NCBI GenBank assembly: GCA_026417175.1
Contig: JAOADT010000018.1
Coordinates: 1-44,353 of the forward strand
Length of the DNA: 44,353 bases
Direction: 5' to 3'
Origin: Deltaproteobacteria bacterium
Lineage (GTDB): Bacteria > Desulfobacterota > Syntrophorhabdia > Syntrophorhabdales > JANXAF01
Below are positions 19,206 through 33,581 of this stretch, piece after piece. The position numbers and the translations under genes were made by a program. The notes under the pieces are model-generated. The model ran no database searches. It saw only the letters and a program-made list of their open reading frames with translations, and was not told where the DNA came from. Positions within the stretch are counted from its first letter, which is position 1. Each line of letters starts with the position of its first letter.

Positions 19206-20006
19206 CTAAACAGACTGTTTGTGGCAGATCTTTTCTAGTTCCAGAAAGAAACTTTTGAATCCCTCTGCATGTATGTTAAATGAGACCTCTTCTAATCTTC
19301 TTATAAGCGCGCTCCCTACGACAAATCCATCCGTATAATTCCAGAACTCTTGGATGATGGCTGGTTTAGATACTCCAAATCCTAGTACCACGGGTTGCTC
19401 AGTACAATGCCTTAAATGGATCAATCTTTCCCTTACTTCCAAAGGTAAACTCTCTCTTTCCCCAGTTACACCTGTTACAGAGACGAAATAAATAAAACCA
19501 GATGCATACTTTTCTATGCGTTTCACTCTCGCATTGTTTGTAAGCGGTGAAACAAGTGTTATAAAATTAAGTTCCTTTTTCTTTGCATATCTCCAAAATG
19601 GGTAAACCTCTTCTACAGGCAAATCAACACATAAAATTCCATTTACTCCAGAGTCTTTCGCCTCATCTACGAGTCTTTCGAATCCATAGGCGAAAAATGG
19701 ATTCATATATCCCATTAGAATTACCGGTTTTTGTGAATTCTTTCTAAATCTTCTTACAATTTCTAAAATATCGGGGATTGTTGTTCCACTCCTAAGCGCC
19801 CGTTCCATAGCCCTCTGAATTACAGGTCCATCCGCCATCGGATCAGAAAAAGGAACACCAAGCTCTATAATGTCTGCGCCTTCCCTTGCAAAGAAATCTA
19901 ATATCTCAAGAGTCTTCTCCTGGTCTGGATCCCCAGCAGTAATATATGGAATCAAGGCCTTTTTTTCATTTTTTCTGAGAGTCTCGAAAATCTCTTTTAA
20001 TCCCAT
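19206..20006 (-). CDS. trpA: Tryptophan synthase alpha subunit
   Basis: The 266-aa TIM-barrel enzyme cleaves indole-3-glycerol phosphate to indole and glyceraldehyde-3-phosphate. [27 protein letters not shown] (catalytic Glu and Asp) and the phosphate site GFGVSKP are visible. The ATG at 20006 is preferred over the in-frame GTG at 20012 because AAGGA is nine bases upstream of the ATG and only three from the GTG. It overlaps trpB by 41 bp and is the last gene of the aromatic supra-operon. No convincing terminator hairpin follows. Confidence 0.96.
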
Positions 20007-21174
20007 CTTCACTTATCCTTCGTAAAACAGTGGGTAAATCTTTGTCTCCTCGACCGGAGAGATTAAGAAGCACCACTTGATCCTCAAAATCTCTTTTATT
20101 TTTCATCAAAAAGGCAAGGGCATGGCTACTTTCAAGTGCAGGAAGGATTCCCTCTTCTCTCGAAAGAAAAAGATAGGCCTCTATTACCTTGTCGTCTTCG
20201 GCGTAGGTGTAATGGACTCTGCCAGATTCAAAAAGAAAACTATGTTCAGGTCCCACACTCGCGTAGTCGAGTCCCGGCGCAATAGAATAGGTATCCAATA
20301 TCTGCCCCCATTCGTTCTGAAGCACATAACTCTTTGTGCCTTGAAATATACCTACTTTTCCTGTCTGGAACCTAGCTGCATGCCTTCCCGAGGCTATTCC
20401 TTCACCGCCCGCCTCAACCCCTATAAGTTTAACATTCTTCATTTTCAGAAAAGGAAAGAATATCCCTATGGCGTTACTTCCACCACCTACACAAGCGATC
20501 ACAGCATCAGGCATTTTTCCTTCCTTTCTTAAAATCTGCTTTTTTGCTTCTCTTCCTATAATTGACACGAAGTACTTTACTAATTCGGGATAAGGGTATG
20601 GACCAAATACTGTTCCCAAAATGTAGTGCGTTGTCGTCACATTTGTAACCCAGTCCCTCAGGGCCTCATTTATAGCATCTTTCAGGGTTCTTGTTCCTTT
20701 TGTGACAGGTTGAACCTTAGCACCGAGAATCTCCATTCTCATGACGTTGGTTTTCTGCCTTTCTACGTCATCTGCCCCCATATAAATCACACATTGTAAT
20801 GCTAGAAGAGAGGCGGCTGTTGCGACCGCTACTCCGTGCTGACCTGCTCCTGTCTCTGCGATTACCCTTATTTTATTCATTCTCCTTGCAAGTAAAGCCT
20901 GGCCTAATGCGTTCAGGATCTTATGGGCACCAGTATGACAGAGATCCTCCCTTTTTAGATAAAGCTTAAAGCCAAGTTTTTTTGAAGCATTTCTAGCATA
21001 GTAAAGTGGTGTTGGCCTGCCCACATACTCCTTAAAGTAATAGTCGAGTTCTTTTCTAAAAGAGATATCCCTTCTTGCGGTTCTCAAAGCATCTTCGAGT
21101 TCGTAAAGAGCCGGCATAAGGGTTTCAGGTACGAATCTCCCTCCGAATTTTCCGTAGTAACCTTTTTTACCCAT
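19966..21174 (-). CDS. trpB: Tryptophan synthase beta subunit
   Basis: The 402-aa PLP enzyme joins indole with serine to make tryptophan. The PLP lysine lies in [16 protein letters not shown] (the usual second N of HKINN is L here). The phosphate cup GGGSNAIG and [11 protein letters not shown] are intact, as is [13 protein letters not shown]. It belongs to the TrpB1 class that pairs with TrpA, which is encoded immediately downstream. It overlaps trpF by 8 bp and trpA by 41 bp. Confidence 0.97.
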
Positions 21175-21751
21175 AATGCTTTATCCTCTTAAACAGTTCT
21201 TCCATTTTTTTTATGTCTTTTTTGCCTGGCCTTTCTTCGATACCTGAACATATGTCTATTCCGTATGGCCTAAGCTGCAATGCTTCATCTATATTTTGGA
21301 GATTTATTCCTCCTGCGAGTATGAAATCCCTTTTTACCTTTTTGACTAGACTCCAATCGAATCTTATCCCTTCTCCTCCGTATGTTTCCGTATAACTGTC
21401 AAGCAGGGGGAAGTACTGAGTACCCTCAATGTCCAAAATATCCCTTTCATCTTTAACCCTTATGACCCTTATGACAATCCTTTTATCCAGCTTTAGATCT
21501 TTATATATCTGGGCCCGGTCTAAGCCTGTATCTTTCATGATAGAGAGGATCTCCTTTTCGTCTTCTTCTACAAAAACACCAACCGTTGTTATAAACGTGG
21601 GAATTCTCTCTATTATTTTTCTTGCCTCCTTAGGTTCAATGAACCTTTTACTTTTCTTGTAGAATACAAATCCAATCGCATCTGCACCAAGTTCACAAGC
21701 AGAAAGAGCATCTTCTAAGTTCGTTATGCCGCAAATCTTAACCTTCACCAT
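21167..21751 (-). CDS. trpF: Phosphoribosylanthranilate isomerase
   Basis: The 194-aa (beta/alpha)8 enzyme isomerises N-phosphoribosyl-anthranilate to CdRP. The catalytic cysteine is in [28 protein letters not shown] and the phosphate loop [12 protein letters not shown] are typical, and the C-terminal [16 protein letters not shown] matches the GVDVSSGVE motif. It overlaps trpC by 14 bp and trpB by 8 bp. Confidence 0.95.
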
Positions 21752-22529
21752 ATTTCAGCCGCCTTATCTCTCTTTCAGGATCATTTGATCCCATAAGTGC
21801 AGTACCCACAAGAAAACCTGAAACTCCGTAATCCATGAATTTTTCAATGTCCTCTCTTTTTTTTATTCCACTTTCGACAATCACTGGGACATGATTCGGA
21901 ACTTCTTTCAAAAGGTGCAAAGCATTGTCCAGATCCACATTAAGGGAAGAGAGGTTTCTAGAGTTTATGCCTATTAAAAAATTTCCTTCAAATAAGCTCA
22001 ATACTCGAAGAAGGGCATCCTTTGTGTAAACCTCCACAAGTACATCGATCCCATAGGTTTCACACATCCCTAAAAAACTTTTTAGATCTTCTGTTTTTAG
22101 TATTTCCGCGATAAGTAGAACACAGTCAGCACCGAAATATCTGCTTTCTAATATCTCATAAGTATCTACTATGAAGTCCTTTCTCAGTATAGGAAGAGAA
22201 GTAAGTTCCTTTGCGGCCTTTATATAAGCCAGATCCCCTTTAAAGTATTTTTCCTCTGTGACGATAGAGAGCGAATCTGCACCTCCCATTTCATAAGCTT
22301 TGATCTGTTCATCGAATTTCACATTCTCATTTATGATCCCCAATGTGGGAGACGCTTTTTTGTATTCCGCGATTATCTTTATATCAGTACAAAATCTTTT
22401 AGAAAAAGTTTGCAAAAAGGGCCTCTTTTTAAGTTCATAAATTCTTTCTTCCATCTCTCTTTCGTTTATGTGTTTCTTTCTTTTTGCCAGTGAGAGACGC
22501 TTTTCTTCGCAAATCTTCTCTAGAAACAT
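21738..22529 (-). CDS. trpC: Indole-3-glycerol phosphate synthase
   Basis: The 263-aa TIM-barrel enzyme converts CdRP to indole-3-glycerol phosphate. Motifs are AEYKKASPTLG (catalytic Lys), SIVTEEKYFKGDL, LRKDFIVDTYEI, GINSRNLSS and VESGIKKREDI. It is monofunctional and separate from TrpF, unlike the enterobacterial fusion. It overlaps trpD by 10 bp. Confidence 0.96.
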   Translation of the reverse strand: MFLEKICEEKRLSLAKRKKHINEREMEERIYELKKRPFLQTFSKRFCTDIKIIAEYKKASPTLGIINENVKFDEQIKAYEMGGADSLSIVTEEKYFKGDLAYIKAAKELTSLPILRKDFIVDTYEILESRYFGADCVLLIAEILKTEDLKSFLGMCETYGIDVLVEVYTKDALLRVLSLFEGNFLIGINSRNLSSLNVDLDNALHLLKEVPNHVPVIVESGIKKREDIEKFMDYGVSGFLVGTALMGSNDPEREIRRLKYGEG

Positions 22530-23539
22530 TTCTTACTTTCCTCTATGTAAGTCTCTAAGACTTTTATGGCACATCCAGAATCTATAATTTCTTCTGCATA
22601 CTTGATCCCTTCTTTTACGCTTTTTGTCTTCCCGATAAGGTAGAAACCGTATCCGCTATTTAAAAGCACTATATCCCTTTTGGGGCCTTTTTCTTCTCCG
22701 CTTAGAACTTTTTTCGCGATAATAGCGTTCTCTAAAGGTCCACCACCTTTTAGATCCTCTTTTTTTGCCTTTTTAAACCCAAAATCTTCTGGCGAAATTG
22801 TATATTTCTCCACATTGTTTCCCTTTATTTCGAAAATTGTGGTTTCTCCCGCTACGCTTATTTCATCTAGACCATCGGAACTGAAAAAGACGGCTGCTTT
22901 TTTCACTTTTGTCTTAGTGAGGACTTCCGCGTAAATTTTAGCCATATCTGGTTTTGCTACTCCGAGAAGCATATGTGTAGGAGATGCGGGATTTGCAAGA
23001 GGACCCACAATGTTGAATATAGTCCTTATGCCTATATCTTGTCTCACTTTTTGAGCATGCTTTAAAGCGGGATGGAAGAAGGGAGCAAACAGAAAGACAA
23101 ATCCTGTAGTATCTATTAACCTTTCAACACTGATTCCATCTGGAGATATATTTGCACCCAAAAATTCAAGTAAATCCGCGCTTCCACAGAGGCTTGAGGC
23201 GGCACGGTTTCCGTGTTTTGCCACCTTGACACCCCCACCGGCCAACACAATAGCAGAAACGGTAGAGATGTTAAACGTTTTTCCCCCATCCCCTCCCGTG
23301 CCGACTATATCGATAAGAGGTTCATGGGAAATAAAGACCTTTTTTGCCTTCTCTTTTATTACGTTTAGAGCTCCTACTACCTCCTCTGGTTTTTCACCTT
23401 TCATTTTTAAAGCAGTTAAAAATGCGGCTATTTGAGATTCGGTGGCCCGGGCTTCAACGATCTCAGTTACAACTTGCATCATCTCTTCCAGGGAAAGATC
23501 CATTCCCTCTGCTACTTTGGATATTGCCTCCCTGATCAT
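22520..23539 (-). CDS. trpD: Anthranilate phosphoribosyltransferase
   Basis: The 339-aa enzyme transfers phosphoribose from PRPP to anthranilate. The PRPP/glycine loop VGTGGDGGKTFNIST and the anthranilate region VAKHGNRAASSLCGSADLLEFLG are intact, followed by RTIFNIVGPLANPA. It is monofunctional (not fused to TrpG). It overlaps trpG by 4 bp (ATGA). Confidence 0.96.
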   Translation of the reverse strand: MIREAISKVAEGMDLSLEEMMQVVTEIVEARATESQIAAFLTALKMKGEKPEEVVGALNVIKEKAKKVFISHEPLIDIVGTGGDGGKTFNISTVSAIVLAGGGVKVAKHGNRAASSLCGSADLLEFLGANISPDGISVERLIDTTGFVFLFAPFFHPALKHAQKVRQDIGIRTIFNIVGPLANPASPTHMLLGVAKPDMAKIYAEVLTKTKVKKAAVFFSSDGLDEISVAGETTIFEIKGNNVEKYTISPEDFGFKKAKKEDLKGGGPLENAIIAKKVLSGEEKGPKRDIVLLNSGYGFYLIGKTKSVKEGIKYAEEIIDSGCAIKVLETYIEESKKCF

Positions 23540-24117
23540 ACTTTTACCCCCGCAATCTCCAGGAAGTTTGCTATGATTTTTCTTCCAGTTTCTGTTAAGA
23601 TTGATTCTGGATGAAATTGAACGCCTTCTATACAGTAGTCTTTGTGCCTTATCCCCATTATTTCTCCATCTTCAGATCTAGCGGTAACCTCTAATATGGA
23701 ATCTTCAAGAGATGTCTCATCTATTACTAGAGAATGGTATCTCACGGCAGAAAAGGGATTCTTCAGCCCTTTAAATATATTTTGTCCATTGTGAAATATG
23801 AGGGAAGTCTTTCCATGTAAAATTCTTTTTGCCCTTACTATTTTCGCTCCAAAGGCGTATCCAATAGCCTGATGACCTAAACATACTCCAAAGATGGGGA
23901 TTTTACTACCGAATCTCTTTATGACATCAACTGTTAATCCTGCATCCTCCGGTCTCTTCGGACCTGGTGAGATGACTATAGCGGAAGGAGTGAGTCTTTC
24001 TATCTCATCCAGAGTGAATCTATCGTTTCTCAACACCACTATTTCTGGAACCAGTTCTCCAATGTACTGGAAGAGGTTGTATGTAAAGGAATCGTAGTTG
24101 TCTATAAGTAGAATCAC
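23536..24117 (-). CDS. trpG: Anthranilate synthase glutamine amidotransferase subunit
   Basis: The 193-aa class I glutamine amidotransferase feeds ammonia to TrpE and may also serve p-aminobenzoate synthesis. The triad is visible as C79 in GVCLGHQAIG, with H169 and E171 in GVQFHPES. The start is ILLIDNYDSFTYNL, standard for TrpG/PabA. It overlaps both trpE and trpD by 4 bp. Confidence 0.96.
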   Translation of the reverse strand: MILLIDNYDSFTYNLFQYIGELVPEIVVLRNDRFTLDEIERLTPSAIVISPGPKRPEDAGLTVDVIKRFGSKIPIFGVCLGHQAIGYAFGAKIVRAKRILHGKTSLIFHNGQNIFKGLKNPFSAVRYHSLVIDETSLEDSILEVTARSEDGEIMGIRHKDYCIEGVQFHPESILTETGRKIIANFLEIAGVKV

Positions 24118-25565
24118 GCCAGAATCTCCTTTAAGTCCCTTAGTGTCTCGGTTAAGGCTTTTGCCTTATTTACGGTCTCATAATACTCGTTTTCCGGGAT
24201 TGAATCTGAAACGATGCCTGCTCCGGCCTGTATGTACAGCTCTTTCCCTCTCATGAGAAGGCTTCTTATAGTGATGCAAAAGTCCATGTCTCCGCTAAAC
24301 AGAAAATAACCTGTTGCTCCCGCATAAAACTCTCTTTTTTCTTCTTCCAACTCTTCTATAATCTCCATAGCCCTTATTTTAGGAGCGCCAATTACTGTTC
24401 CAGCGGGAAAACATGAGGCAAACACATCAAAGGCATCTAAACTATCCCTCATTACTCCTTTGACTGACGAAACTATATGCATTACGTGTGAATATTTCTC
24501 CACCTCTAAAAACCGTTCTACACTCACGCTGCCGATTTTAGATACTCTACCCACATCATTTCTCGCAAGATCAACAAGCATCACATGTTCTGCCAATTCC
24601 TTTTCATCGGAAAGTAGGTCTTTTTCTAATCGTTGATCCTCTTCTTTGGTTTTTCCCCTCGGTTTCGTGCCGGCGATCGGATTTAATTGTATTAACCTGT
24701 CTCTCATCCTCACCATTGTTTCTGGAGAAGAACCAATGAGGCTGTATTCTGGAAAGTTAAGGAGGAACATATAAGGAGAAGGATTTATGAGCCTTAAAGC
24801 CCGGTAAACGTCCATACTTTCCGCATCGATAAAAACTTTAAATCTTTGGGACAAGACCACTTGAATAACATCTCCGTTGACTATGTATTCTTTTGCGGCA
24901 TCTACCATCTCCTTGAACTTCTGCTTCGAAACACCAGATTCCATCTTCTCAACAAATCGGTCCTTTCTGGGCGGAGTAGGAATAGGAAAGCGCAAAAAGA
25001 GTTTTAACTCACGTAACGCTTCTTCACATTCGTTACCATTGGGACTTACTGAGATAAGGGTTATTCTGCCCGCATAATTGTCAAAAATAGCGATCTTCGA
25101 CGGAAAAATGAAATACATGTCAAAACATCCTATCACCCTTGGCTTTATGTCCGGAATTTTTTCAAAAAACCGGACCGAATCGTATGAAACGTATCCGAAT
25201 GCGCCAGCGGTAATTATGTCATTCTGGTTTTGGTCTCTTACTTTCAGGCTCTTCACTAGGTACTTTAAAATCAGAAATGGATTTCCAACGCACAACTCGT
25301 CTTCAATAAGGCCAGAAAGAAGAACTTTTTGACCTTTAGCCTTGAATATGAGGTAAGGATCAAAACCTATAATCGAGTATCTACCAGATTCTTCTTTTTT
25401 TTCCGCGCTTTCGAATAGAAAGGAATGACCATCCTCATAGGCCGATTTCATCTTCAGATAATAAGAAAGAGGGGTATCGAGATCTCCAAGAACCTCTTTT
25501 GTGGTCAAAGTAAGCTGAAACGGACCTTTGTTCCGTACCAGCTCTTGAAAATCAGAATACTTCAA
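24114..25565 (-). CDS. trpE: Anthranilate synthase component I
   Basis: The 483-aa enzyme converts chorismate to anthranilate. The N-terminal domain has the L-F-E-S element (about 50-53), equivalent to the LLES tryptophan-binding site, so feedback inhibition is likely. The C-terminal chorismate-binding domain shows GSSPETMVR, IAGTKPRGK, HVMLVDLARNDVGRV, AGTVIGAPKIRAME and the final IQAGAGIVSDS. It overlaps tyrA and trpG by 4 bp each, so it sits mid-operon with no promoter of its own. Confidence 0.97.
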   Translation of the reverse strand: MKYSDFQELVRNKGPFQLTLTTKEVLGDLDTPLSYYLKMKSAYEDGHSFLFESAEKKEESGRYSIIGFDPYLIFKAKGQKVLLSGLIEDELCVGNPFLILKYLVKSLKVRDQNQNDIITAGAFGYVSYDSVRFFEKIPDIKPRVIGCFDMYFIFPSKIAIFDNYAGRITLISVSPNGNECEEALRELKLFLRFPIPTPPRKDRFVEKMESGVSKQKFKEMVDAAKEYIVNGDVIQVVLSQRFKVFIDAESMDVYRALRLINPSPYMFLLNFPEYSLIGSSPETMVRMRDRLIQLNPIAGTKPRGKTKEEDQRLEKDLLSDEKELAEHVMLVDLARNDVGRVSKIGSVSVERFLEVEKYSHVMHIVSSVKGVMRDSLDAFDVFASCFPAGTVIGAPKIRAMEIIEELEEEKREFYAGATGYFLFSGDMDFCITIRSLLMRGKELYIQAGAGIVSDSIPENEYYETVNKAKALTETLRDLKEILA

Positions 25566-26335
25566 ATCAAATTCCTCCTGAGCCTAAAAAGAAATCCTGA
25601 AAGTTCCTCGTAGTCTTTTTGCTTTACAATATGTTTCAGATACTCTAGCCTACCAGTGATCTTTTCTAATTCAGGAAGGGAGCTCGGATTAAAAAGAATT
25701 TCTGCTAAAAGATGATCGTCTTCTGACAAAAGCCCCTTAGCGATAGTTAAATGCTTTGCAAAGGTGGTCCCAGGAACGATCTTTTTTTCCACACAGGATG
25801 CAAACACGAGTGAAGAAACAAAAGGCACCGTTAAGGAATATGCCATCATTCTGTCATGTTCGTCGAATGTTAGTTCGAAAAATTTGACCTTAAATCTCAT
25901 GAAAAACCTTTTAAAAACCTCCACAGCTTCTTTATCCGAACCCGAAATAAAAATGACGTTTTCTCCTTCAAGCTTTTCCATATTCGCAAAGGTAGGACCA
26001 AACATGGGATGCATTGAAAGGTACCTTACTTTTTTTCTTCTGTAGTATTCCGGAATATCTCCCTTTATGGATGCTATGTCAGAAAAAATGGTTTCTTTTT
26101 CCACATATCGCTCTATCTCCTGGAAGGCTCTTATCGTCTCCTTTAAAGACACCGCATTCAGAACCAGGTCAGGCCTGAAGCTTTTAAGATCATCAGGCGG
26201 CAAAATGCCTATTTGACTTTCTACTAACCCAATTTTCTTTTTATCCCTGTCAAACCCTAAAACCTCATGTTCCTTACTCAATCTTGATGCAAACCAACAT
26301 CCCATATTACCTAGGCCTAAAATGTATATTTTCAT
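25562..26335 (-). CDS. tyrA: Prephenate dehydrogenase
   Basis: The 257-aa NAD-dependent enzyme oxidises prephenate to 4-hydroxyphenylpyruvate on the tyrosine branch. The Rossmann motif is ILGLGNMGCWFA. The catalytic region has DIASIKG and SMHPMFGPT, and the C-terminal helical domain is present. It is short for the family and has no ACT or chorismate-mutase domain, so it lacks a visible tyrosine-sensing module. A use of arogenate rather than prephenate cannot be excluded. It overlaps pheA and trpE by 4 bp. Confidence 0.88.
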   Translation of the reverse strand: MKIYILGLGNMGCWFASRLSKEHEVLGFDRDKKKIGLVESQIGILPPDDLKSFRPDLVLNAVSLKETIRAFQEIERYVEKETIFSDIASIKGDIPEYYRRKKVRYLSMHPMFGPTFANMEKLEGENVIFISGSDKEAVEVFKRFFMRFKVKFFELTFDEHDRMMAYSLTVPFVSSLVFASCVEKKIVPGTTFAKHLTIAKGLLSEDDHLLAEILFNPSSLPELEKITGRLEYLKHIVKQKDYEELSGFLFRLRRNLI

Positions 26336-27405
26336 ATTTTTTCTCCTCTGTCAGACATGTAGCATCCTAGAAATTTGAAAAAGTCGGTCTCCTTCTTCAC
26401 ATCCTCTAACGCTTTTTTCACATTTTCTTCCTTTTCAGACCCGTGAAAATCTGTGTAGAATAGATAACGTCCCGGATCGCTTCTTTTAGGTCTTGACTCT
26501 ATCTTGGTGAGGTTGATGCCATACTCGGAGAATATCTTTAAAACCCGAAAAAGGGCCCCAGGTTCGTGTTTAGTACCAAATATTATCGAACATTTATCCC
26601 CATCATTCGCCCTACTATTTGAAAGCACAGCGAATCTTGTGACGTTATCGGGATGGTCTTCCACATTTTCCTTTATGATGTCAAGGTTATAGATGCTAGC
26701 GCAAAGTTTGCTGGCTATAACGCAGACCCCTTTCAGTCTGTTTTCTGATAACATTTTTGCAGCCCCCGCTGTATCATAATACGGTCTTGGTTCAAGTTTA
26801 TGTCTACTTATGAAATCCCTGCACTGATTTAGAGCTTGGGGATGGGAATAAACTATCTTAAGATCCCTATAATCTTCATCTGGTAAAGCAAGAAGACAAT
26901 GATGGATAGGAAGATTCACTTCTCCTACCATGTACAATTTAGTGCTCAAAAGAAGATCCAAAACTCTAGAAATTCCTCCCTCAAGAGAATTCTCGATTGG
27001 GACTATTCCGAAATCAAGTATCCCTTTTTCGGTTTCCTCAAAGACCTCTTCAAATTCCATACAAGGAATGGGAATGCAATTACGATCGAACTTAGTAGCA
27101 GCAATCTCACTAAATGCACCGTGTTCTCCCTGAAATCCTATAAGCCTCAATCCCTGTGTCTGAACATCCCTACTTCGCTCTAAAATCAATCCAAAAAGTT
27201 TTTCAGTAAAACCTTTGTCAATCAGATAACTTGGGTGTCTCTCGGCATTTGTGAGGATCTCTCTTTCTCTTTGTGTATCTATTATATGGTCTTTCAATCT
27301 CCCTATTTTTAGAGAAATTTCAAACCTCTCATCTAAAAGCTGAAGAATCTTTTTATCAATCTGATCAATCCGTTTTCTTAACGTCTTAATCTCACTCTCT
27401 TTCAT
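26332..27405 (-). CDS. pheA: Bifunctional chorismate mutase/prephenate dehydratase
   Basis: The 357-aa P-protein has an N-terminal AroQ chorismate mutase (about 1-85, LRKRIDQIDKKILQLLDERF). A prephenate dehydratase domain follows (about 90-265), with GFQGEHGAFSE, GIVPIENSLEGGI and the catalytic region DNVTRFAVL. A C-terminal ACT domain (about 275-350) carries GALFRVLKIFSEYGIN and the phenylalanine-binding E-S-R-P motif. The enzyme should therefore be feedback-inhibited by phenylalanine. Its mutase also supplies prephenate to TyrA. It overlaps aroC by 14 bp. Confidence 0.96.
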   Translation of the reverse strand: MKESEIKTLRKRIDQIDKKILQLLDERFEISLKIGRLKDHIIDTQREREILTNAERHPSYLIDKGFTEKLFGLILERSRDVQTQGLRLIGFQGEHGAFSEIAATKFDRNCIPIPCMEFEEVFEETEKGILDFGIVPIENSLEGGISRVLDLLLSTKLYMVGEVNLPIHHCLLALPDEDYRDLKIVYSHPQALNQCRDFISRHKLEPRPYYDTAGAAKMLSENRLKGVCVIASKLCASIYNLDIIKENVEDHPDNVTRFAVLSNSRANDGDKCSIIFGTKHEPGALFRVLKIFSEYGINLTKIESRPKRSDPGRYLFYTDFHGSEKEENVKKALEDVKKETDFFKFLGCYMSDRGEKI

Positions 27406-28393
27406 GCCACACCCTCCCTATTATCTGTTCCATAAGCATAAGATCGGCGATTACTATGCTACATGCCGCTTCAAGAATGACTGGGATTCTCAAAGCAAAA
27501 CATGTATCATGTCTACCTTTTATTTCTATCTCAGTTCTTTGACCTGTTTTTAGATCTATGGTCCATTGCTTCTTTTTTAAGCTTGGGGTGGGCCTTACCG
27601 CTACTCTAAAAACAACATCATTACCATTTGTAATCCCACCTTGGACACCCCCACAGTTATTGGTTCTTGTCTTACCGTCTGCTGATAATATCTCATCATT
27701 ATATTCAGATCCCTTCATACGAGATGAATCAAAGCCTCTACCGAACTCTATACCTTTTACCCCTGGAATCGAAAAAACCATATGGCTCACTAATGACTCA
27801 AAGCTATCAAAAAATGGTTCCCCAAGCCCTGATGGAACATTACTTACTCTGCATTCCACAATACCACCAAGTGTATCACCACTTCTTTCCGCCTCTTCTA
27901 TTAGGGTGAGAAAATCTGTTTTTCCTCCAATCTCAACTACCTCTGCATAAGTCTCTACAGGTTTTATGATCTTCTTTGCCACGACCCCTGCTGCACAAAT
28001 GGCCACCGTCATCCTTCCTGAGAACTGTCCACCTCCTCTCGGGTCGTTAAACCCTCCATATTTTTTGTTAGCAACAAAATCTGCGTGGCCTGGTCTAGGA
28101 AGAAATGCCATCTCTTCATAACTCTTTGAAAGAACATCTTTATTCTCAAAGAGAATCACTATTGGAGAGCCGTCTGTTCTCCCTTTGTAAAGTCCAGATT
28201 TAATGAAAGGAATATCTTCCTCATTTCTTTGGGTTACCCCTCTTAAATTTGGTCTTCTTCTTTTTAGGTCTTCTTTAAAATCGTCGATTGTAAGCGGTAA
28301 ACCAGTTGGGCATCCATCTATTACTACACCTACTATTTCTCCATGAGATTTACCAATTATCGTTATTCTGAATAGTCTTCCAAAGGTGTTCAT
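27392..28393 (-). CDS. aroC: Chorismate synthase
   Basis: The 333-aa FMNH2-dependent enzyme converts EPSP to chorismate. GKSHGEIVGVVIDGCPTG, GRTDGSPI and FNDPRGGGQFSGRMT are signature motifs, and CGGVQGGITNG and RHDTC follow. The ATG at 28393 forms an ATGA overlap with the aroA stop and gives the standard MNTFGRLF start; a longer frame from 28447 would add 18 atypical residues. It is the branch point of the pathway, followed directly by pheA. Confidence 0.97.
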   Translation of the reverse strand: MNTFGRLFRITIIGKSHGEIVGVVIDGCPTGLPLTIDDFKEDLKRRRPNLRGVTQRNEEDIPFIKSGLYKGRTDGSPIVILFENKDVLSKSYEEMAFLPRPGHADFVANKKYGGFNDPRGGGQFSGRMTVAICAAGVVAKKIIKPVETYAEVVEIGGKTDFLTLIEEAERSGDTLGGIVECRVSNVPSGLGEPFFDSFESLVSHMVFSIPGVKGIEFGRGFDSSRMKGSEYNDEILSADGKTRTNNCGGVQGGITNGNDVVFRVAVRPTPSLKKKQWTIDLKTGQRTEIEIKGRHDTCFALRIPVILEAACSIVIADLMLMEQIIGRVWHERE

Positions 28394-29646
28394 CTTCTTA
28401 TCCTTGAAAGTTCCTTGAAGAATTCTGGGTAAGATTTTTTTGTGCATCGGGGATTTAATATTTCAATCCCTTCATCACTTCTTAATCCCAAAATGGCAAA
28501 AGCCATGGCAATCCTATGGTCTTGGTGTGGGTCTATTGTCCCGCCTTTTATTGAGCTTCTACCCTCTATGGTTATGATGGTCCCATTAAGTTCAAAGTTG
28601 ATTCCTAATCTTTTAAATCCTTCACACATACTTAAAAGTCTGTTACTCTCCTTAAATAGTTGCCTTTCAACACCGTAAATCGTACTTTTGCCTTCTGCGC
28701 AGGCAGCAAGAACACAGAGTGGCGGAAAAAGGTCAGGGCAATCGGATACATCAAATTTAAAAGGTTTGATTCTGTCTTTCTGGACCCATACACCTTCGGG
28801 TGTAACTTCTACTTTGGCTCCACATTGGTAAAGAGCATCAATAATACGTCTGTCAGCTTGCTCTGACTGATAAACTAAATTCTTTACGAAAATGCTTCCA
28901 GAGATTGCAGCTCCTACAAGGAAAAAAGACGCAGAAGACCAGTCCCCTTCTACGGTATAAGTGAGAGGTTGTAAACTTTGACCCCCCTGAATGTATATGG
29001 CGGACAGATGATCTTGTGCTTCAATTTTAACTCCTGCCATTTTTAATATCTCTAATGTCATACGAATGTAAGGCTTACTTTTTGCTTCCTTTATGTGAAG
29101 GAAGGAATCTTTCTCTGTAAGGGGGAGACAAAAGAGGAGTCCCGAGATAATTTGCGAAGTTAAGCTCCCATCTAATGTAGTACTGGCGCCTTTCACTCTT
29201 CCCTTAACCCTTACAGGCAAATATCCGTTATCGCTTGTACAGTGGATATTGAATTCTCTCAGTTCGTCTAAATTTCCAATTGGTCTTTTCTTTAAAGTCC
29301 CTCGACCATCTACTATTAATTCTTCATCCTTTAGGGCACAGATAGGGATAAACATTCGGGCACAAAGTCCGCTTTCTAAGCAATCAATAAGGCTATCCTT
29401 TATTGGACTTTTAAGACCGTTCGTGCCTTCTACTATTACTCTTCTATCCTCCACCTTAAAACTCCCACCAAGCCTATTAACAAGCGAAATTGATGCCAGC
29501 CCATCGTCAGAAAATGATGGATCTATTATGGTCGATTTTCCACAGGCAAGTAGAGAAGCCGCAATGGCTCTTATTGTCATACTTTTTGAGGGAGGAGCCA
29601 CTAACTCTCCTTCAATTAAAGCGGATTTAATCACAATTGAGTCCAT
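28390..29646 (-). CDS. aroA: EPSP synthase (3-phosphoshikimate 1-carboxyvinyltransferase)
   Basis: The 418-aa enzyme adds the enolpyruvyl group of PEP to shikimate-3-phosphate. Visible motifs are the N-terminal APPSKSMTIRA, LTSQIISGLLF-type substrate loop, EGDWSSASFFL, and the C-terminal DPHQDHRIAMAFA. CESGLCARMF stands where many enzymes read GN-G-T-R/LRF, so the N-terminal PEP loop is a divergent form (C-A-R-M). It overlaps aroEK by 20 bp and aroC by 4 bp. Confidence 0.95.
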   Translation of the reverse strand: MDSIVIKSALIEGELVAPPSKSMTIRAIAASLLACGKSTIIDPSFSDDGLASISLVNRLGGSFKVEDRRVIVEGTNGLKSPIKDSLIDCLESGLCARMFIPICALKDEELIVDGRGTLKKRPIGNLDELREFNIHCTSDNGYLPVRVKGRVKGASTTLDGSLTSQIISGLLFCLPLTEKDSFLHIKEAKSKPYIRMTLEILKMAGVKIEAQDHLSAIYIQGGQSLQPLTYTVEGDWSSASFFLVGAAISGSIFVKNLVYQSEQADRRIIDALYQCGAKVEVTPEGVWVQKDRIKPFKFDVSDCPDLFPPLCVLAACAEGKSTIYGVERQLFKESNRLLSMCEGFKRLGINFELNGTIITIEGRSSIKGGTIDPHQDHRIAMAFAILGLRSDEGIEILNPRCTKKSYPEFFKELSRIRR

Positions 29647-30916
29647 ACTCGATCTCCGTTTTTAGCATATCTGATATTTTGTGAGCCGTTCTATCTTTAG
29701 TTGAGATTAAGATGTCCGCTGTCTCAGCATAAAAAGGTGTCCTTTCCTTAATGAGTTTATGGATATTCCAATGACTGAGCAACGGGCGGTTCCCACTACC
29801 GTCTGTACGGTCAATAACCGTTTTTTCATCTATCCACAGCCATATGGTTGTTGCCTTTTTCTTCAAAAACTCTCTCACCTTTTTACTCAGAACCGAACCA
29901 CCTCCTAGGGAAATCACAGCTCCTTCTTTCCTGTTTATGAGTTGTGTCACAATTCTTTCTTCAATCAATCTGAAATAACTTTCGCCTTTTTCTTTGAATA
30001 TTCTGTCTATGCTCAAACCCTCCTGTGCCTGTATCACCTCATCTGTATCTACGAATTCGACTCCCAATTTCTGTGCCAGCAACCTTCCTATGGTAGTTTT
30101 ACCCGAGCCCATGAATCCCACAAGACACAGCGTTTTTTTTCTCTTTCTGGGCCCAAAAGCCGCGTTTTCAAGAATTTTGTATGAGATCTCAACGTTCAAA
30201 AAATGTTTGATAGAGTATATTGCCTGAAAAAGGAGCCAGTCTCTGCCATCTATGTATTTTACGCCTCTTTCCTCTAATTTCTTTCTCCTTTTTTCTGTTT
30301 GAACATAATTAGCATCGAGAACCACTTGCCCTTCTTTTAAAAAGTGCTCGTACTCGAAAGCAACCCCCGCAGGTAAACAGTAGATCAATACATCCATATC
30401 TCTCATTTTGTGTTTGTCCGCGAGTGATAATACCCGCCCTCGAAAGAGATCTGCAATTTCTTTAGCCTTTTCTTCAGTTCTATTGAAAATGTAGGGAGAC
30501 GTATATAGAGAGAGAAAAAATGCTACTGCTTTTGCAGATCCACCAGCTCCAAGGATGGCAACCTTCTTTCCCTCTATCTCTACACCATTTTTTGCCAATG
30601 CTGCTCTTACACCATCTACATCAGTATTAAAAGCAAAAGTTTTATCGCCAGAAAACAATATAGTATTTGCTGCCCCCACTTTTTTCACCAAATCTTCTCT
30701 TTCGTCAACGTACCTTAAAATGTCTTCCTTGTATGGACTAGTTACGTTTAAACCTGATATCCCTATCTTTTTTCCAACCTTAATAGCTTCTTCTGCTGAA
30801 TCGACAACGAAAGCAAGGTAATTGGCATTTATCTTTTTTTTCTGAAACAGGGATCTGAATATTTGAGGGCTTTTACTGTGAAATACAGGACGACCTATAA
30901 CTGCGTATATAAGCAT
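29627..30916 (-). CDS. aroEK: Shikimate dehydrogenase-shikimate kinase fusion
   Basis: The 429-aa fusion carries two consecutive pathway enzymes. The N-terminal shikimate dehydrogenase (about 1-252) has GRPVFHSKSP, the catalytic lysine in NVTSPYK63, FNTDVDG and the NADP loop GAGGSAKAV. The C-terminal shikimate kinase (about 260-429) has P-loop GFMGSGKTT (267-275), FVDTDEVI and VISLGGGSVL. The order in the protein is kinase after dehydrogenase, matching the reaction order. Most bacteria encode these as separate proteins. No internal start or stop suggests a sequencing artefact. It overlaps aroD by 22 bp. Confidence 0.95.
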   Translation of the reverse strand: MLIYAVIGRPVFHSKSPQIFRSLFQKKKINANYLAFVVDSAEEAIKVGKKIGISGLNVTSPYKEDILRYVDEREDLVKKVGAANTILFSGDKTFAFNTDVDGVRAALAKNGVEIEGKKVAILGAGGSAKAVAFFLSLYTSPYIFNRTEEKAKEIADLFRGRVLSLADKHKMRDMDVLIYCLPAGVAFEYEHFLKEGQVVLDANYVQTEKRRKKLEERGVKYIDGRDWLLFQAIYSIKHFLNVEISYKILENAAFGPRKRKKTLCLVGFMGSGKTTIGRLLAQKLGVEFVDTDEVIQAQEGLSIDRIFKEKGESYFRLIEERIVTQLINRKEGAVISLGGGSVLSKKVREFLKKKATTIWLWIDEKTVIDRTDGSGNRPLLSHWNIHKLIKERTPFYAETADILISTKDRTAHKISDMLKTEIEYGLNCD

Positions 30917-31563
30917 TCTCTACCCTCAAAGAGAAGAGCTAATATTTCCTCAAGCACGTACTTTTCTATCTGTCCTTCTGCTGTCTCCTTACCCTCTCTG
31001 TAAGAAGCAAAAGTAAAAGGACTTCCAAGCACCACAGAAAGAATTCTCGTTATCTTTCCCTTTTCTCCCATCCCCGTGACTATTACTCTACCCTTAAACT
31101 CTGGAAGTTTAAGAAGTCTAAGTAAATTTAGATTGTCTTCGTCTTTTCTGACTTTGCACGATATCTTCCCGTAATCACCAATAGAAAGACACGTAGAGAG
31201 AATTCTTCTAAGCTCAGAAAAGGGCTCTGTCTTTTCAAAGTCATGATAAGAAACGATGAGTTTTGAACCCTTCTCCTTCGCTTTTTTTCTTACCCGATAG
31301 ATGAATTCAAAAGGGGATTGAATGTCTACATCAACGTACGAAGCTCCATGGTCTATGGCTTCAATCAACAGCTCCTCCCTTTTTTGTTCTGGGATTTCTC
31401 CTTCCCTGAATGTTGCTATGAGATTTTTATGGGAAGAAAAGATTTTTCTCACATCCTCTCTTTCTATTTTCATTCTGTCCATTCGAATCTCTGCAAATTC
31501 GACTTTGTCCAAAACTTCTAAACACTCCTCAATAGATACATCTCCTATGCTTACACAAACCAT
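30895..31563 (-). CDS. aroD: Type I 3-dehydroquinate dehydratase
   Basis: The 222-aa class I enzyme dehydrates 3-dehydroquinate through a Schiff base. FAEIRMDRM (E-x-R-x-D), the catalytic His in VSYHDFEKT, and the lysine in GKISCKV are visible. The ATG at 31563 follows GAGGAGGT at ideal spacing; the upstream TTG frame start at 31578 falls on that ribosome-binding site and is rejected. It overlaps the aroB end by 35 bp. Confidence 0.94.
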   Translation of the reverse strand: MVCVSIGDVSIEECLEVLDKVEFAEIRMDRMKIEREDVRKIFSSHKNLIATFREGEIPEQKREELLIEAIDHGASYVDVDIQSPFEFIYRVRKKAKEKGSKLIVSYHDFEKTEPFSELRRILSTCLSIGDYGKISCKVRKDEDNLNLLRLLKLPEFKGRVIVTGMGEKGKITRILSVVLGSPFTFASYREGKETAEGQIEKYVLEEILALLFEGRECLYTQL

Positions 31564-32563
31564 CAAAAACCTCCTCAAGTGCTTTAAGTTTCACCTTTTC
31601 TAGCTTCGAACAACCGATTCTCTCTATGAGAACAATGGTTATCAGGTCATTTTCCCTTTTTTTATCTGCTTTGATCCTTCTAACGATTTTTCGAAAACTT
31701 GGTTTGAAGTCTACTGGTAACCCAAATTTATCTAATACTTTTTTTATCTTTGATGCCTCTTCGGGACTTAAAACTCCCCATTTCAGAGAAAACTTGAGCT
31801 CTAGCAACATGCCGACTGAAATAGCGCGCCCGTGACTTAGATTACACGTCGTCTCTATCGCGTGTCCAAAGGTGTGACCAAAATTCAGTTTCTTTCTTTC
31901 GCCGTTATCTTTTTCATCTTTTTCCACAATGGCACTTTTTACTAATAGTGATTCGTAAATTATGTCCCTTAGAAGCTCTTTGTCTTTCAATTCAGGAAGC
32001 GGAAGATGTTCAAGTGTTTCAAACAAGGTTCTATTTCCTATAATCCCGTGTTTTATAATCTCCGCAAAACCATTCTCCCATTCCTCGTGAGGAAGAGTCT
32101 CCAAAAATTTTGGGTCGATCACCACAAAAGAAGGTTGAGTAACAGTTCCTATCACATTCTTAATTCCGCTAAAATTAACGCCGTTTTTTCCACCAATAGA
32201 TGCGTCTACCTGGGCAAGTAAGCTAGTGGGAACGAAACCGAAAGAAATACCCCTCATGAATGTTGATCCCACAAAACCGGTTATATCGAGAATAACCCCA
32301 CCGCCTACACCAATAAGCCAAGTGTCTCTGTCAGTCTCAAACTTTAGGAGCTTTCTGTAGATGTCCTGAATAGTTTTCAAGCTTTTATTTTTTTCCCTTC
32401 CCTCGATTCTTATGACGTAAGGTGTATCAAGAGACCTCCCATAGATTTTCCAAACATTCTCATCAAATATAAATACGCTCTTCTTTTTACCCAAAAATCT
32501 CTCTAAATGAAAGAGATACTCGCCGAAAACTATTCTAGACTCCTTAAGCCGAATCTCTTTCAT
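31529..32563 (-). CDS. aroB: 3-Dehydroquinate synthase
   Basis: The 344-aa NAD- and metal-dependent enzyme cyclises DAHP to 3-dehydroquinate. [30 protein letters not shown] covers the nucleotide site. [11 protein letters not shown], the metal ligands in [11 protein letters not shown] and [12 protein letters not shown] are typical. The ATG at 32563 has TAGGAG five bases upstream; the open frame from 32584 is not preferred. It overlaps aroF by 20 bp. Confidence 0.96.
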
Positions 32564-33374
32564 AAAAACTCCTAATAGTCTCATTCAACTTTCTTATTTT
32601 TTCCATCAGGTTCTCGAATTCGCTAGGTCGTAAAGACTGTTCTCTATCTGACAGGGCTGTCTCCGGGTTTATGTGGACCTCAATCATAAGACCGTCTGCG
32701 CCCGCAGCCAAAGCAGCAAGACTAAGTGAAGGCACTAAAGATGCACGTCCTGCCGCATGTGAAGGATCTACTATGACCGGAAGAAAAGTGATTTCTTTCA
32801 GTACAGACACTGCACTAATGTCAAGAGTGTTTCTAGTTGCCTTTTCAAACGTTCTTATCCCTCTCTCACACAGGATAACGTCGTAATTTCCTTCCGCAAG
32901 AATGTACTCAGCGCAGCTTAACCATTCGTCTATTGTGGAATGCATACCTCTCTTTAAAAGAACGGGCTTCCTTGCTTTTCCCACCTCTTTAAGAAGAGAA
33001 AAGTTTTGCATATTTCGTGCTCCTATTTGTAGAACATCAGCATACTCGCATACCCAAGATACATCCCTCGGATCCATAACTTCGGTAACTATGGGCAATC
33101 CAGTTTCTTCCCTTGCCTTTTTGAGTATCTTTAATCCTTTAAGACCGAGACCTTGAAAAGCGTAAGGAGAAGTCCTAGGCTTGAAAGCCCCACCCCTTAG
33201 CATATGGGCACCGGCTTTCTTTACGGCTAAAGCAGTTTCTATAGTTTGTCTCTCATTTTCCACTGAACAGGGACCGGCGATTACTACAAACTCTTTACCA
33301 ACCTTTATCCCCTCTACTTCTACTAATCTTGTTCTATCCTCTCCTTTTAAGACAAGCTTTATGTTTTCCTTCAT
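32544..33374 (-). CDS. aroF: DAHP synthase, type I-beta, catalytic core only
   Basis: The 276-aa enzyme condenses PEP with erythrose-4-phosphate, the first committed step. AGPCSVEN (34-40), [17 protein letters not shown] (61-77), the metal cysteine in GPCS, and [13 protein letters not shown] place it in the I-beta/KDO8P-synthase group. It begins almost directly at the barrel, with no N-terminal ferredoxin-like or ACT domain and no chorismate-mutase fusion, so no allosteric site is visible. The ATG at 33374 has AAGGAG seven bases upstream. It is the first enzyme gene after the attenuator, so leader control may substitute for feedback inhibition. Confidence 0.95.
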
Positions 33375-33398
33375 ATGTTCACTCCTTAAAAGAGCAAT

Positions 33399-33435
33399 AA
33401 AAAAGGGCCATGAGTGAGTTTTGCACTCATGGCCC
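33399..33435 (-). terminator. Intrinsic terminator (attenuator) in the aromatic operon leader
   Basis: On the minus strand GGGCCATGAGTG (33435-33424) pairs perfectly over 12 bp with CACTCATGGCCC (33416-33405) around a 7-nt loop, followed by T6 and then ATT. This is a strong rho-independent terminator placed 25 bp before the aroF start codon, with aroF reading in the same direction. It can only make sense as a conditional (attenuation) terminator. Confidence 0.93.
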
Positions 33436-33474
33436 CCAAAAATGCCCCTTTTTCCTTAAGGGGGGCCCGAGTGC
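33423..33474 (-). promoter_or_regulatory. Antiterminator pairing of the aromatic attenuator
   Basis: GCACTC (33474-33469) and GGCCCCC (33467-33461), which lie in the last codons of the leader ORF, pair with GAGTGC (33428-33423) and GGGGGCC (33437-33431). This gives 13 bp with a 1x2 internal loop. The pairing uses the 5' arm of the terminator, so the two structures exclude each other. A small competing stem of CCCCTT (33463-33458) with AAGGGG (33450-33445) forms earlier during transcription and would favour termination when the leader is not translated. Confidence 0.8.
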
Positions 33475-33542
33475 AAATAACCGTAAAAATAAAACCACCA
33501 ATATATCTTTGAGGATAAATCTTTATAAATTTTTGTCATCAT
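33456..33542 (-). CDS. Aromatic leader peptide controlling the aro-phe-tyr-trp operon
   Basis: This 28-codon ORF is too short for routine gene callers. It starts with two ATG codons (33542, 33539) and ends at TAA (33458-33456). Residues 14-22 read Y-W-W-F-Y-F-Y-G-Y; in total 2 Trp, 2 Phe and 5 Tyr among 28. The aromatic run (33503-33477) ends just before the antiterminator arm (33474-33461). A ribosome stalled at the Trp, Phe or early Tyr codons would leave that arm free, while one reaching the stop would cover it. This is the logic of trpL and pheL leaders, here for all three aromatic amino acids. No strong Shine-Dalgarno is visible; the predicted mRNA start is only 5-8 bases upstream. Confidence 0.9.
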   Translation of the reverse strand: MMTKIYKDLSSKIYWWFYFYGYLHSGPP

Positions 33543-33564
33543 CTTGTACTAAAATTAGTACAAG
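33543..33564 (-). promoter_or_regulatory. Perfect 22-bp palindrome, TrpR-like operator
   Basis: Half-sites CTTGTACTAA and TTAGTACAAG are perfect inverted repeats around a 2-bp centre. They cover the -10 box and the predicted start of the aromatic operon. The outer GTACT/AGTAC matches the ends of Escherichia coli TrpR operators, but the gap between them is 6 bp here against 8 bp there. The binding protein is therefore either a TrpR relative with altered geometry or another repressor; no regulator gene is in the window. Confidence 0.75.
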
Positions 33565-33581
33565 TCGTTGAGGAATGTCAA
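33554..33581 (-). promoter_or_regulatory. Promoter of the aromatic supra-operon
   Basis: TTGACA (33581-33576) is followed after 16 bp by ACTAAT (33559-33554), preceded by TG as an extended -10 (TGT-ACTAAT). Predicted start is near 33550-33547. The palindromic operator overlaps the -10, so a bound repressor would exclude RNA polymerase. Confidence 0.65.

Follow-up and report, generated by a model that had tools for sequence, protein, structure and literature searches.

A putative composite Trp/Phe/Tyr leader peptide attenuator ahead of a 15-gene aromatic amino acid operon

The stretch of DNA analyzed in this study, which is 44,353 nucleotides long and is referred to as the window, very probably contains a ribosome-mediated transcription attenuator whose composite Trp/Phe/Tyr leader peptide controls the operon from aroF to trpA. 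Judged by its sequence, this leader is a new composite version of ribosome-mediated transcription attenuation. Sequence comparisons established the parts of the attenuator, their conservation, the compensatory changes in their stems, the geometry of these stems relative to the leader ORF and the match between leader codons and pathway products.

The aromatic operon, its leader ORF and the RNA arms

The 15-cistron operon proposed in the initial annotation was confirmed gene by gene with family models. On the minus strand, the gene order is aroF-B-D-EK-A-C-pheA-tyrA-trpEGDCFBA, and the genes overlap at every junction. The first gene, aroF, is preceded by a Shine-Dalgarno sequence, AAGGAG (33382..33387), and encodes a DAHP synthase of the B. 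subtilis type (32544..33374; TIGR01361, E 1e-122). It is followed by aroB for 3-dehydroquinate synthase (31529..32584; TIGR01357), aroD for type I 3-dehydroquinate dehydratase (30895..31578; TIGR01093, below cut-off), an aroE-aroK fusion for shikimate dehydrogenase and shikimate kinase (29627..30916; TIGR00507, shikimate kinase models and PF01202), aroA for EPSP synthase (28390..29646; TIGR01356), aroC for chorismate synthase (27392..28447; TIGR00033), pheA for a chorismate mutase-prephenate dehydratase-ACT protein (26332..27405; PF01817, PF00800 and PF01842) and tyrA for prephenate dehydrogenase (25562..26335; NF006409 and other prephenate dehydrogenase models, all below their cut-offs). The remaining genes are trpE (24114..25565; TIGR00564, above cut-off), trpG (23536..24117; TIGR00566), trpD (22520..23539; PF00591), trpC (21738..22529; PF00218), trpF (21167..21751; PF00697), trpB (19966..21174; PF00291) and trpA (19206..20012; PF00290).

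Upstream of aroF, a leader ORF of 28 codons on the minus strand (33456..33542) encodes the putative peptide MMTKIYKDLSSKIYWWFYFYGYLHSGPP and ends with a stop codon. As previously noted, nine of its residues are aromatic: Y6, Y14, W15, W16, F17, Y18, F19, Y20, and Y22. Eight of them fall within nine codons, which form the run Tyr-Trp-Trp-Phe-Tyr-Phe-Tyr-Gly-Tyr (33477..33503, minus strand). No short ORF matched this density of aromatic codons in 60 randomizations of the 44-kb window generated with a first-order Markov model.

Between the leader ORF and aroF lies an intrinsic terminator (33399..33435, minus strand), and the earlier description of a 12-bp stem with T6 was accurate. Its sequence is GGGCCATGAGTG-CAAAACT-CACTCATGGCCC followed by T6, with positions 33435-33424 paired to 33416-33405 around a 7-nt loop and the T tract at 33404-33399. 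Arm 3 (33420..33437, minus strand), defined by its pairing and compensatory changes, is common to this terminator and to an antiterminator, whose 5' arm (arm 2; 33461..33477, minus strand) is within the 3' end of the leader ORF. In the antiterminator, positions 33477-33461 pair with 33437-33420 over about 16 bp with one bulge. The alternative pairing in the initial annotation was therefore real and excluded the terminator, but the 13 bp assigned to it were too few. The antiterminator duplex had an energy of -32.7 kcal/mol, compared with -13.8 +/- 2.9 kcal/mol for shuffled arms (z = -6.5).

In addition, the CCCCTT/AAGGGG stem reported earlier is present at 33463-33445 (minus strand), where it forms a small hairpin across the leader stop codon; its proposed role, termination without translation, is putative. 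By eye, small hairpins were also seen at the equivalent place in several relatives. The protector (1:2) hairpin was strong in five related loci (L004, L005, L010, L015, and L016) and weak in the window. Moreover, four related loci (L017, L012, L015, and L016) had a second terminator-like hairpin directly after the first one.

Conservation and compensatory changes in the same order

Relatives of aroF were gathered from 60 related genomes. The comparison set consisted of 16 genomes of the same order in which readable DNA was available upstream of a full-length aroF of this type, at 67-76% identity. All 16 possessed an aromatic leader ORF, an antiterminator and a terminator before aroF, and the distance from the end of the leader ORF to aroF ranged from 76 to 192 nt. 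Together with that of the window, this gave 17 leaders, each of which was scored on its best nine-codon run. An aromatic run was found in 17/17 leaders, Trp was within the run in 16, and Trp, Phe and Tyr were all inside nine codons in 14. The exceptions were L004 and L011, whose nine-codon runs lacked Phe, and L013, whose run lacked Trp. Thus, of the outcomes considered in the initial annotation, retention of the terminator with loss of the aromatic codons was not the one observed; the codons were kept as well. Beyond the order, other aroF relatives from its phylum (L018-L024) had no comparable leader near aroF.

Over the runs of the 17 leaders, the aromatic share was 74% in frame 0, compared with 13% and 20% in the two alternative frames. 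Given that this enrichment was in frame and that the synonymous codons TTT/TTC and TAT/TAC were both in use across the leaders, selection acts on the amino acids.

Both stems covaried among the leaders, which the initial annotation had suggested looking for. In the 17-sequence alignment, 99.5% of the cells of the terminator were paired and six of its 12 pairs were changed on both sides; for the antiterminator, 83.6% of the cells were paired and six pairs were changed on both sides. For either structure, none of 500 shuffles was as good in doubly changed pairs, and slid versions of the pairings scored far lower; because kinship of the sequences inflates such counts, they are strong hints and not probabilities. 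Some of the compensatory changes were three-way, since arm 3 is common to both stems. For instance, L001 had CACTC/GAGTG/CACTC where others had CACCC/GGGTG/CACCC, and L002 had CCTATG/CATAGG/CCTATG.

These results bear on the reading that the leader ORF is incidental and that the terminator serves simply as an insulator of the operon or as the end point of a short constitutive RNA. Such a reading would agree with the searches of Rfam for leader families, Trp_leader among them, and for T-box, in which nothing in the window matched at the curated gathering score except a tRNA and in which no leader family matched in 12 related loci. However, the aromatic enrichment is frame-specific and conserved in 17/17 leaders, the antiterminator covaries, the chance level is near zero, and leaders that share the scaffold differ in codon content according to the function of their gene, as described below. 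An incidental ORF is therefore hardly plausible.

Predicted stalling, the leader promoter and a promoter palindrome

Stalling was modeled by folding the free RNA under a ribosome mask with the A-site placed at each codon and the leading edge assumed to be 13 nt past the A-site. With arm 4 unmade, antiterminator pairing in the window was 0.88 for stalls at Y14-F19 and fell to 0.77 at Y20 and then to 0.36 at G21. For the full-length RNA, the terminator was 0.11 up to W16, 0.67 at F17, 0.97 from F19 and 1.00 at the stop codon. The modeling thus reproduced the stall geometry that the initial annotation had put forward, in which stalls in the run free the antiterminator arm and a ribosome at the stop codon covers it. 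Given that F17 was intermediate and F19 was terminating at full length, the response to Phe in the window would rest on kinetic folding. In most relatives, antiterminator pairing also fell a few codons or less from where the run ends, and in several of them it partly recovered further on. At equilibrium, the terminator was favored in most relatives even with arm 2 free, so that their switch must be kinetic.

The leader promoter of the window contains a -35 element, TTGACA (33576..33581, minus strand), that is a perfect consensus. Nearly all relatives had a TTGAC(A/G/T) -35 element with a -10 element about 7-9 nt before the leader ATG. The ATG was about 8 nt past the -10 element in nearly all leaders, while the best -10 match in the window leaves 11 nt; the leader starts of L002 and L010 were set by eye. 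No Shine-Dalgarno-like sequence was found ahead of the leader ATG in the window or in the leaders of the relatives. Given this short spacing and the lack of a Shine-Dalgarno-like sequence, the leader mRNA is probably leaderless or near-leaderless. According to Morbach (2000), as cited in PMC4046766, the leader peptide of C. glutamicum ilvBNC is made without a ribosome binding site.

Based on these features, the attenuator is proposed to work as follows. A short mRNA would start at, or a few nucleotides upstream of, the leader ATG, and a ribosome translating it would trail the polymerase along the aromatic run of nine codons. With any one of the Trp-, Phe- and Tyr-tRNAs uncharged, the ribosome would stall inside this run, leaving arm 2 free to pair with arm 3; no terminator would then form and the 15 genes would be transcribed. 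If all three tRNAs were charged, the ribosome would reach the TAA codon and cover arm 2, arm 3 would pair with arm 4, and transcription would be expected to stop at T6.

A perfect 20-bp palindrome, TTGTACTAATTTTAGTACAA (33544..33563), lies over the -10 region of the leader promoter and is a putative repressor operator, which suggests a second, repressor-type control. It was the sole such site in the genome when up to three mismatches were allowed. Palindromes of the form TTGTAY-N8-RTACAA were also present at the leader promoter of several relatives and at one separate trp leader promoter. A repressor acting at this palindrome might then be the main control, with attenuation being minor, and the perfection of the palindrome and its recurrence would favor this. 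The palindrome, however, was missing or degenerate in several relatives that retain the attenuator. TrpR was ruled out as its regulator, as PF01371 had no match in 19 genomes of the order, including the one that contains the window. Moreover, both controls can coexist, as they do in the E. coli trp operon. Control mainly by a repressor is thus improbable. When the genomes were searched for further copies of the operator, the sites returned were merely scattered, and none pointed clearly to an aromatic gene or a regulator.

Sister attenuators, amino acid sensing and related systems

A covariance model built from arm 2 to the terminator was run on 46 genomes of the order and matched 45 of them, including some without an aromatic pathway. 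The extra matches were sister attenuators, whose RNA scaffold and leader geometry are like those of the composite leader but whose codon run is narrowed to match the product of the aminotransferase gene that they regulate. They precede two aminotransferase families, both assigned by eye from sequence. The first family (GWTRRMFEEG) had 39 leaders with Phe/Tyr runs such as FFYFYF; Trp was in the run of 2/39 of these leaders, compared with 16/17 aro leaders (Fisher p 6e-11), and the leader ORFs were chosen by total aromatic content, which favors no single aromatic residue. The second family had 11 leaders with Tyr-only runs (YYYYYYY) and no Trp (L162, L168, L173, L174, L176, L178, L180, L182, L203, L206, and L156), some with up to eight consecutive Tyr codons. 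Since the runs of the sister leaders match the products of their own genes, codon content tracks pathway product.

One of the sister attenuators is in the same genome as the window, before an aminotransferase gene (G000:C22:93977-94049; L171). Its leader peptide is MKALNYFYFYFRIGHP, with the run ALNYFYFYF. The initial annotation had spoken of a single attenuator, which holds for the 15-gene operon but not for the whole genome, where the aminotransferase gene has its own Phe/Tyr attenuator. A cobalamin riboswitch is found on the opposite strand near this attenuator (L171:966-1142). A weak model match before a TrpB-like gene in G001 (L211) had no leader and was dropped.

In the five genomes examined that have separate trp operons, trpE was preceded by a leader ending in WWWGS or WWWDS. 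These WWW leaders are parallel in function to the composite leader, to which they are likened by codon content and not by scaffold. Those of L099, L102, L103, L104, and L105 included MLNVWWWGS and MLNIWWWDS and were accompanied by two successive terminator-like hairpins. The explanation that Trp codons are in the composite run merely because trp genes are joined to the operon was rejected, as genomes with separate trp operons retain them. Given that the composite leader keeps Trp beside a separate trp attenuator, what it follows is the common pathway, not trp gene presence alone. Among the 46 genomes of the order, a trpE match was missing from 29, most of which likewise lacked an aroF at 70% identity. 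Sequence data of this kind suggest that many members of the order are aromatic auxotrophs that still keep aminotransferase attenuators.

The sister leaders also help to assess a different mechanism, in which the leader would be a nascent-chain arrest peptide of the TnaC/Trp type, responding in the exit tunnel to a free aromatic amino acid and not to tRNA charging. The hydrophobic aromatic stretch just ahead of the stop codon and the LHPG-like C-termini common in the family would fit such a peptide. However, the run keeps its aromatic identity but is otherwise free to vary in order and composition, the arm-2 RNA TTGCACCC dictates the LHP(G) ending, and some leaders on this scaffold have homopolymeric Tyr runs. 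An arrest peptide would also invert the logic, with the product acting as an inducer. An arrest peptide is thus very improbable.

Similar to the attenuator of the window, those of Escherichia coli trpL and pheL use arm exchange, in which stalling at regulatory codons picks the antiterminator or the terminator. Each of them, however, serves one amino acid and one branch and has a Shine-Dalgarno sequence, whereas the window has one leader for all branches and an mRNA that looks leaderless. Composite leaders with codons for several amino acids of one pathway are those of the enterobacterial ilvGMEDA and thrABC operons, but their codons are branched-chain or Thr/Ile codons and their genes are different. 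The novelty claimed for the composite leader had to be narrowed: the composite principle is already known from ilv, thr and aroR. For a leader that combines Trp, Phe and Tyr, the open-access literature yielded no description, which is weak evidence of novelty.

The closest experimental case, similar in kind, is aroR of C. glutamicum, a mixed-aromatic-codon leader attenuator ahead of the DAHP synthase gene aroF with a Phe-Tyr-Phe leader (PMC11802643, PMC4046766). The reported run has no Trp, whereas the leader of the window contains Trp, Phe and Tyr and precedes all 15 pathway genes. In Acholeplasma, the uORFC-13-1 motif upstream of aroF is a predicted attenuator with at least one Phe codon (PMC8632094). 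Compared by description, it shares with the leader of the window a short, Phe-encoding ORF and a terminator ahead of aroF, but it has an RBS and no composite run is described for it.

Since the aroR leader was reported to respond to Phe but not to Tyr (PMC11802643), the amino acids encoded in a leader are not necessarily those that it senses. For the same reason, we infer rather than observe the sensing of all three amino acids in the window. The attenuator might work but sense mainly one or two of them, for instance Trp or Phe, with the other codons reflecting drift or tuning. Besides aroR, the runs without Phe in two leaders and without Trp in a third point in this direction, as do stalls from F17 on, which in the window block the terminator less well at equilibrium. 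But most leaders hold all three residues within nine codons, Trp is retained even beside a separate WWW trp attenuator, and in the kinetic model arm 2 stays open for every stall at Y14-F19. In addition, the sister leaders of single-product genes are pure Phe/Tyr or Tyr, which indicates that drift does not freely mix codons. Partial sensing is thus rather unlikely, and the composite leader likely responds to all three amino acids.

If so, mixing the codons of all end products would let one attenuator govern an entire branched pathway, and a shortage of any one aromatic amino acid would raise the shared supply. Together with its sisters, the composite attenuator would form a natural design series differing mainly in codon content, which would make the rules of tRNA sensing, such as the number, place and order of codons, directly testable. 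The composite case would also yield a clear prediction that aroR of C. glutamicum seems to break for Tyr. A broader reading is possible but tentative: one scaffold would have been re-tuned by codons alone into Trp/Phe/Tyr, Phe/Tyr and Tyr sensors beside WWW trp leaders, the composite version would act as an OR gate on three tRNA pools and switch the 15 genes by way of a leaderless transcript, and a Micrarchaeota aro operon of like kind, also with an aroE-aroK fusion, would have an archaeal ribosome-coupled attenuator.

Composite or Phe/Tyr leaders before aroF were also found in other Deltaproteobacteria or Desulfobacteraceae (L044, L050, L063, and L089) and in Spirochaetes (L033, L039, and L061). 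In Micrarchaeota, 14 loci had an aromatic leader with an FF-x-FSFxY-like run before aroF. Aromatic residues made up 82/126 of the positions in frame, compared with 4/126 and 11/126 out of frame. These loci had three mutually exclusive arms, namely GTGGTTT (start codon), GAAAACCAC (stop codon) and GTGGTTTTC (downstream); z for the pairing of arms 2 and 3 ranged from -2 to -5, and many had a T-rich tract between these two arms. An upstream leader was also sought for trpE of Micrarchaeota and was not found. A leader-peptide attenuator in Archaea is a possible, separate lead. In L035, aroF is followed by an aroE-aroK fusion and preceded by trpC-trpB-trpA, while trpA is upstream in L052 and trpB in L032. 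The 14 leaders (L032, L034-L038, L041, L046, L047, L051, L052, L060, L064, and L069) are about 150-280 nt upstream of aroF.
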